64,000 bases of DNA, from NCBI GenBank assembly GCA_016192075.1, contig JACPUU010000022.1, positions 1 to 64,000 of the forward strand, in the 5' to 3' direction. The position numbers and the translations under genes were made by a program. A model generated the notes under the pieces. It was given only the letters and a program-made list of their open reading frames with translations, searched no databases and was not told the origin of the DNA. Positions within the stretch are counted from its first letter, which is position 1. Each line of letters begins with the position of its first letter. This DNA is from Bacteroidota bacterium. Lineage in GTDB: Bacteria; Bacteroidota; Bacteroidia; Flavobacteriales_D; Crocinitomicaceae. Positions 1-492 of the stretch are shown piece after piece.

Positions 1-161
1 ATAACCGCGGCGGAGATAAATTTACTTCCAAAGGACAGCCCTGGATATTAGTTTACAAAGAACAGTTTCAAACCAAAGAACTTGCTTATAAACGGGAGCT
101 TGAGAATAAGAAATGGAAAAGTAAAAAGCTAATTCAGAAATTAATCAGCTCAGCTGGATAG
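1..161 (+). pseudogene. GIY-YIG nuclease gene, 3' part of a first copy
   Basis: The reading frame is open from the window edge (codons from base 3) to a TAG at 159-161 and encodes about 52 residues that match the C-terminal two thirds of the full-length copy at 244-492. Over 160 bases the copies differ at only two positions that I can see (bases 100 and 106), changing Arg to Leu and Ile to Asn. The 5' part lies outside the window, so the gene may be whole. Its last codons and stop are at the same time the D-arm of the tRNA-Arg-like sequence that follows. Small GIY-YIG proteins belong to the UvrC/homing-endonuclease fold; the cellular role of the single-domain type is not established. Confidence 0.7.
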
Positions 162-212
162 AGCACCTCCCTTCTAAGGAGGCGGTCGAAGGTTCGAATC
201 CTTCCGCGCTCA
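139..212 (+). tRNA. tRNA-Arg(TCT)-like gene lacking its 5' acceptor strand
   Basis: From base 148 on the cloverleaf is standard: D-stem GCTC/GAGC (148-151, 161-164), anticodon stem CCTCC/GGAGG (166-170, 178-182) around loop CTTCTAA with anticodon TCT, five-base variable region, T-arm GAAGG-TTCGAAT-CCTTC (188-204), 3' acceptor strand CGCGCTC (205-211) and discriminator A at 212. The 5' strand should be GAGCGCG, but 139-145 reads AATTAAT, which is the end of the upstream GIY-YIG frame and cannot pair. No CCA is encoded. As it stands the RNA would not form an acceptor stem, so it is probably a tRNA fragment or pseudogene, unless the 5' half comes from elsewhere. Confidence 0.65.
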
Positions 213-213
213 C

Positions 214-235
214 AATCCCGACTTCGGTCGGGATT
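214..235 (+). terminator. Rho-independent terminator after the tRNA-like gene
   Basis: Perfect 9-base stem AATCCCGAC/GTCGGGATT with a TTCG tetraloop, followed by TGTGTTTT. It sits two bases beyond the tRNA 3' end and nine bases before the ATG of the second GIY-YIG copy. Confidence 0.75.
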
Positions 236-243
236 TGTGTTTT

Positions 244-492
244 ATGTACTTTCTATACATTCTCCATAGCCAACTACTTGATAAATTCTATATAGGTCAT
301 ACAAATGATCCTGATGAACGAATTTTAAGGCATAACCGCGGCGGAGATAAATTTACTTCCAAAGGACAGCCCTGGATATTAGTTTACAAAGAACAGTTTC
401 AAACCAAAGAACTTGCTTATAAACGGGAGCGTGAGATTAAGAAATGGAAAAGTAAAAAGCTAATTCAGAAATTAATCAGCTCAGCTGGATAA
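244..492 (+). CDS. Small GIY-YIG nuclease family protein
   Basis: An 82-residue single-domain GIY-YIG protein. The signature appears as LYIL near residue 4 and FYIGHT near residue 15, followed by the conserved RILRHN stretch holding the catalytic Arg, and a Glu/Lys-rich helix with KRERE and KKWKSKK. ATG at 244 fits better than the TTG nine bases upstream, which lies in the terminator tail. The final residues (ISSAG) are encoded by a copy of the tRNA D-arm sequence AGCTCAGCTGGATA, so the 3' end looks captured from, or shared with, a tRNA gene. I recall that such proteins in Bacteroidetes often sit against tRNA genes, but I did not check this. Function in the cell is unknown; a mobile or selfish role is an inference. 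Confidence 0.85.
   Translation: MYFLYILHSQLLDKFYIGHTNDPDERILRHNRGGDKFTSKGQPWILVYKEQFQTKELAYKREREIKKWKSKKLIQKLISSAG

Follow-up and report, generated by a model that had tools for sequence, protein, structure and literature searches.

Small GIY-YIG nuclease genes joined to broken tRNA copies in Bacteroidota: a widespread, apparently undescribed family of putatively mobile, tRNA-associated genes

Genomic islands and prophages with tyrosine integrases integrate in tRNA genes, where the repeated part of the tRNA keeps it functional, and group I introns with homing endonucleases occur in tRNA anticodon loops. The SegB protein of phages T4 and T6 is a free-standing GIY-YIG homing endonuclease encoded in a tRNA gene cluster (PMC2988022, PMC13096335); in phage T6, tandem tRNA-Tyr and segB repeats arose with microhomology between the 5' end of the tRNA and the 3' end of segB (PMC13096335). 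The locus described here, from a Crocinitomicaceae bacterium, resembles the SegB system in having a GIY-YIG gene among tRNA genes and tandem repeats of tRNA and nuclease with microhomology, but the present units are chromosomal rather than phage-borne, and no unit family tied to its own tRNA, no duplication preserving an intact tRNA and no palindrome have been described for SegB. The SegB protein is longer than the 82-residue protein encoded at this locus, which lacks the separate DNA-binding region of SegB-type homing genes; it shares with them the catalytic GIY-YIG residues and presence or absence at the same locus. Like tRNA-integrating islands, the units show direct repeats of part of a tRNA and retain an intact tRNA; however, they contain no tyrosine or serine integrase (the GIY-YIG gene is the sole ORF), and the duplicated stretch does not stop at the tRNA but takes in the terminator or still more downstream sequence. 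The likeness to group I introns lies in the linkage of a nuclease gene to the anticodon region of tRNA genes, but here there is no ribozyme and no splicing, and one tRNA copy is uninterrupted.

The window analyzed here comprises 64,000 nucleotides at one end of contig C20. Its base 1 is the physical end of that contig, and because of this the first of two tandem GIY-YIG genes lacks its 5' part: only the 3' part of copy 1 is present (positions 1..161, forward strand), the 5' part being found on contig C9 (134804-134902). Copy 2 (244..492, forward strand) is a complete 82-codon gene for a bare GIY-YIG nuclease domain, with an ATG at 244 and a stop codon at 490-492, and matches PF01541 with 59.8 bits (cut-off, 22.6). 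The original prediction of two copies, 331 bases apart with two substitutions and both ending in a 14-base tRNA D-arm sequence, was confirmed: bases 1-160 and 332-491 mismatch only at positions 100 and 106, and the 14-mer AGCTCAGCTGGATA occurs at 147-160 and, as the C-terminal codons of copy 2, at 478..491 (forward strand). The TAG stop codon of copy 1 (159-161) is read from the tRNA D-loop. The rest of a tRNA-Arg does follow copy 1, as had been proposed: a tRNA-Arg(TCT) without positions 1-8, running from position 9 to the 3' end, occupies 147..213 (forward strand), and its first 14 bases (147-160) double as the 3' end of the nuclease gene. Positions 9-63 of the Rfam tRNA model match 147-204 (45.8 bits), no tRNA was called by ARAGORN at this 5'-less copy, and its identity to the intact copy on C9 is 99%. 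It is followed by the tRNA terminator hairpin TCCCGACTTCGGTCGGGA (216..233, forward strand), which occurs a second time after the intact tRNA on C9. The terminator noted after copy 2 corresponds to a terminator-like hairpin, AAAGCCTGTC-12-GACAGGCTTT (491..522, forward strand), with a stem perfect over 10 bp, that lies directly 3' of the D-arm in the spot where relatives have a palindrome. The duplicated unit thus delimited spans 147-477 (331 bp), and the D-arm repeat is best read as the place where recombination gave rise to a recent tandem duplication; the suggestion that tRNA sequence serves as the point of recombination that multiplies the gene holds, in the window, at this 14-base repeat. 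Apart from the partial tRNA, a search of positions 1-700 against Rfam gave a single hit, which scored well under its cut-off, and a group I intron was rejected.

A search to the left of base 1 for the missing tRNA part, also part of the original prediction, leads to C9, the end of which holds intact tRNA-Ser, tRNA-Pro and tRNA-Arg(TCT) genes, the terminator and the first 33 GIY-YIG codons; the ends of C9 and C20 share an 11-base overlap. The likely order is intact tRNA-Arg, terminator, GIY-YIG copy 1, tRNA-Arg from position 9, terminator, GIY-YIG copy 2, D-arm and hairpin, so that the joined locus is likely a single 331-bp unit duplicated at the D-arm repeat, with a unit number that the contigs do not fix. 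In the joined sequence, copy 1 would have F3C, Y5D (the catalytic Tyr), R63L and I65N relative to copy 2, which could mean that the copy has decayed or that the contig ends contain base errors. In the last ~420 bases of C9 (locus L019), the intact tRNA-Arg is also preceded by a tandem series of three incomplete tRNA-Arg copies, each comprising ~78 bp of the 5' part; TCCCGA...TCGGGA palindromes lie in their D-loop and take the exact place of their anticodon arm.

The same design is found elsewhere in this genome. On contig C19, an intact tRNA-Asn is followed by a GIY-YIG gene, a broken tRNA-Asn (from the D-arm onward), a second GIY-YIG gene and a further D-arm piece, and the GIY-YIG proteins end in KLAQLVRV, encoded by tRNA sequence. 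On contig C18, a tRNA-Phe is followed by a GIY-YIG gene and a degraded tRNA-Phe end with the same terminator. Upstream of the intact tRNA-Phe on C18 (L020) lies another tRNA-Phe copy, of full length but interrupted in both the D-loop and the anticodon arm by palindrome-like inserts. Separately, a GIY-YIG clade with proteins ending in GSGKAFSNKRFL is located downstream of the tmRNA gene (ssrA) in several genera, with no visible remnant (L022 on contig C12 of this genome, L105, L111, L121, L126 and L129). Of 19 tandem GIY-YIG loci (15 genomes), 16 adjoin a tRNA recognized by ARAGORN. A closed one-contig genome has five near-identical 315-bp units after tRNA-Asp, and genome G423 carries three ~358-bp units at tRNA-Arg(TCT), the same tRNA as in the window; at many loci, the second GIY-YIG copy is a fragment. 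In G423 (L369), the tRNA-Pro/tRNA-Arg pair is itself duplicated beside the GIY-YIG array.

A search for PF01541 covered 60 genomes from 24 genera, and ~110 loci were inspected; these were the best-scoring matches, so the rates are biased. Among these score-ranked loci, 37 have a small GIY-YIG gene with an intact same-strand tRNA no more than 260 nt upstream, and at 28 of the 37 the gene is followed by a piece of that same tRNA, which aligns to it better than to any tRNA of another type in the set. The recurrent anatomy is an intact tRNA, a terminator, a GIY-YIG gene of 80-90 codons and a broken copy of the same tRNA. In 23 of 29 Bacteroidota genomes, the best relative of the window gene is no more than 300 nt from a tRNA on the same strand (~0.4% expected), which speaks clearly against the possibility, raised at the outset as refuting, that homologues show no tRNA association. 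YhbQ-like small GIY-YIG genes, separated from the others by a C-terminal motif and used as an internal control, have no upstream tRNA (0/40), versus 38/88 of the other small GIY-YIG genes (Fisher p 3e-8). Within the phylum, 129 of 296 genomes and 78 of 140 genera contain relatives with E values of 1e-8 or better. The idea of a minimal mobile unit tied to tRNA genes stands in substance, mobility being apparent from comparison. The D-arm, however, is not its general target: across the family, the start of the broken tRNA copy varies between position 1 and the anticodon arm, and many isoacceptors are used. Two polarities occur. In the usual one, the intact tRNA is upstream and the 3' tRNA part comes after the gene; in the other, found at tRNA-Pro, tRNA-Arg(CCT), tRNA-Gly, tRNA-Leu and the tRNA-Met of Ignavibacteria, the 5' tRNA part precedes the gene and the intact tRNA starts near its stop codon. 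One working tRNA is kept in both, which is the outcome that selection would leave from target-duplicating insertions. No description of such genes in bacteria was found in the literature searched, the coverage of which excluded most subscription journals and preprints, and this widespread family of putatively mobile minimal genes in Bacteroidota and their relatives is apparently undescribed. No phage match was found for the Met-lineage protein (see below) in a phage collection, and carriage by phages or plasmids was rejected, as the two proteins tried gave no match.

The GIY-YIG lineages largely follow particular tRNA types. A tree of 58 tRNA-linked proteins, built from a short alignment with many forks unresolved, requires 22 changes of tRNA type, whereas 300 shuffles of the labels required 39.8 on average and never fewer than 34; with the Met lineage left out, it requires 20 changes against a mean of 31.0 in shuffles (minimum, 27). 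In a scan that covered a single genome for each prokaryote species, the Met lineage has an upstream tRNA-Met(CAT), mostly of the initiator type, at 54 of 56 loci and a remnant at 46 of 56. Its hosts include Flavobacteriales, Cytophagales, Chitinophagales, Sphingobacteriales, Bacteroidales, Balneolaceae and Ignavibacteria, the record names Planktophila and Kuenenia probably representing mislabelled or contaminated bins. A single clade was rejected for the Met-lineage genes (tRNA-fMet) of genus g11 (p-AU 4.6e-5) and for those of genus g10 (p-AU 0.005), and a gene of g11 shares 81% identity with a gene from another genus but only 63% with that of a congener. The median dN/dS of 0.10 (72 computable pairs) indicates purifying selection; substitutions at codon positions 1, 2 and 3 number 2459, 1602 and 6121 (183 non-independent pairs).

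The empty sites called for by the original prediction do exist: related species differ in whether their tRNA-Val and tRNA-fMet sites are filled or empty. Among 11 species belonging to one genus, the tRNA-Val locus downstream of a folC-like gene is empty in 4, carries GIY-YIG lineage 1 in 3, lineage 2 in 3 (one of these decayed) and another GIY-YIG gene in 1. At tRNA-fMet, the filled genome G031 aligns with the empty G012 up to 65 bases past the tRNA, and the alignment is taken up again from a point 26 bases short of the end of the tRNA; G031 has two copies of a 90-bp target stretch, one on either side of ~282 new bases that comprise the GIY-YIG gene and its tail. The filled G001 and the empty G023 differ in the same way, with a duplication of 76 bp. 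Such clean pairs, which are few, with two measured and gain not distinguished from loss, differ by the GIY-YIG gene and a 76-90 bp target duplication that leaves one tRNA intact. The inserted sequence starts 2-4 bases before the start codon, and a filled site consists of the reading frame from these few bases onward, a second partial tRNA and a terminator. In both G031 and G001, the duplicated stretch holds host-specific intergenic sequence and therefore was not imported from a distant donor; sequence from a closely related donor would look identical. The two copies in G031 share 85% identity and resemble one another no more than they resemble the sequence of the empty relative. The G115/G125 pair (165-bp duplication) was discarded, as the relic of a GIY-YIG gene in G125 means that its site cannot count as cleanly empty. 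The M1-peptidase-like gene that follows the window copy, sought as a marker of empty sites, was absent in 79 relatives.

Broken tRNA copies commonly contain a short palindrome that disrupts the cloverleaf. In the Met lineage, TCCGYC...GRCGGA immediately follows the anticodon CATA in nearly all of the 32 loci inspected, and in tRNA-Val, -Leu and -Arg the entire anticodon arm is replaced by TCCCGA...TCGGGA. A perfect inverted repeat with a stem of at least 6 bp is found at the palindrome place in 43 of 62 remnants; single palindromes are weak against shuffles, and the fixed position is the stronger argument. The TCCCGA...TCGGGA sequence is dispersed in genomes (~6-36 per genome, compared with 0-3 for a control; rare in the window) and in this respect resembles REP-like palindromes, from which it differs by its set places inside broken tRNA copies and by a type that tracks the GIY-YIG lineage and not the host; for the latter reason, ordinary dispersed repeats were rejected as an explanation. 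Second palindromes are seen in the T-loop of the broken tRNA copies at L208, L215, L224 and L226, as if hairpin loops attracted palindrome insertion. Candidate roles of the palindrome are an element end, protection from the nuclease and silencing of the pseudo-tRNA.

The AlphaFold2 model of the 82-residue window protein (pLDDT 92.7) consists of a single GIY-YIG domain with a C-terminal helix and no separate DNA-binding region beyond the catalytic domain, and Y5, Y16, G18, H30 and E62 are invariant in the alignment. The nearest solved folds are UPF0213 (1zg2), to which the tRNA-unlinked YhbQ-like proteins belong in type, followed by Slx1 (6seh/4xlg). Slx1 is a nuclease of branched DNA, and a structure-selective nuclease acting on the hairpins of tRNA genes would fit both the target and the palindromes. 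Members of a related GIY-YIG lineage (ending in GMGRRYLKNRL) are located antisense inside transposase-like genes in three genomes (L051/G049, L069/G055 and L072/G026), at the same point just before the HPHxHxIVPxGG motif in all three, and are bounded by the inverted ends CGTTAGAAAT...ATTTCTAACG. These cases are independent support for the putative site-specific insertion by small GIY-YIG genes of this group.

Comparison of loci and genomes is what points to mobility, and the most economical account of the sequences would be a mobile gene that is homing-endonuclease-like and tRNA specific; the GIY-YIG gene is probably a minimal, free-standing gene of this kind. Its nuclease would cut or nick a tRNA gene in or near the hairpin arms, and repair of the break would copy the nuclease gene in and duplicate the target stretch, with only those insertions surviving that leave a working tRNA. 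The tRNA-derived 3' end of the gene would then form a direct repeat of the resident tRNA, so that later breaks or unequal recombination could amplify the segment of tRNA part, terminator and GIY-YIG gene into tandem arrays; in the window, this amplification would have taken place at the 14-base D-arm repeat. Counting against homing, the tRNA beside every unit is intact: the presumed target persists, and a sequence-specific nuclease should therefore still cut its own host. Further points against this reading are that the protein offers no DNA-binding domain apart from the catalytic one, that clean pairs are few and compatible with gain or loss, that the two G031 copies are as distant from each other as from the empty relative, and that the surveyed loci were chosen by score. 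The authors of the SegB study cite poor cutting of donor alleles by free-standing GIY-YIG enzymes (PMC13096335). The start of the new sequence 2-4 nt before the start codon in the clean pairs, and the variable length of the duplicated host stretch with its host-specific intergenic sequence, would also suit a primed, transposition-like insertion, in which a nick in one strand, at a set point of the tRNA arm, is followed by copying in of the element from that end and a second, downstream nick yields a variable target duplication. Such a process would resemble target-primed retrotransposition, amounting to transposon-type mobility instead of homing by recombination, and GIY-YIG endonucleases are reported to start such insertions in some retroelements (PMC1564403); still, the unit itself encodes no reverse transcriptase or other polymerase and two clean pairs were measured, which leaves this alternative unlikely.

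Explanations that dispense with mobility fare worse against the comparative data. A vertically inherited host enzyme, cotranscribed with tRNAs and serving a function such as the repair of DNA or RNA, with the tRNA copies arising as by-products, would agree with the purifying selection and with the one lineage that regularly follows tmRNA without a remnant, but hardly with the patchy presence within genera, the target switching, the arrays and relics, and the conflict between the gene tree and genus membership; we regard it as distinctly improbable. Still less probable is a purely local tandem duplication by slippage at the 14-base repeat, with a GIY-YIG gene placed after a tRNA by chance: although the two copies hardly differ and their junction in the window coincides exactly with a direct repeat of 14 bases, this would leave unexplained the unrelated GIY-YIG lineages at a dozen tRNA types in many genera, the filled and empty sites, and the rejected genus-level descent. 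Slippage is thus contradicted as the full explanation but is the likely cause of the second copy in the window. The chance that an assembly artefact at the contig end made the fused structure appears minimal. Both C9 and C20 break within the repeat, and the last 196 bases of C9 have three mismatches to copy 2, but the same design is seen at the mid-contig tRNA-Asn locus and in closed genomes, and the tRNA/GIY-YIG arrays of closed one-contig genomes rule out an artefact as the whole explanation, although a local error at the window junction itself is conceivable. Returning to the tRNA-specific mobile gene, a bolder version can be put forward tentatively, as a possibility that we rate below even: the units may form a new class of minimal transposable unit, in which a single GIY-YIG nuclease of 80-90 codons inserts its own frame at tRNA hairpin arms, duplicates a target long enough to regenerate the tRNA, leaves a lineage-specific palindrome in the dead copy as an end or protection signal, and spreads through Bacteroidota and related phyla.

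If the account of a tRNA-specific mobile gene is true, the tRNA genes of a major bacterial superphylum would have been invaded repeatedly by what are possibly among the smallest protein-coding mobile genes. The units would have gone unnoticed because each could pass for an orphan nuclease gene of small size next to a tRNA, and because assemblies often break at them, as in the window. Three questions would thereby become open to experiment: by what means a GIY-YIG domain on its own recognizes a single tRNA gene, how selfish DNA can exploit a tRNA gene that its host needs, with the initiator tRNA favoured, and not kill that host, and where pseudo-tRNAs and extra tRNA copies may come from.
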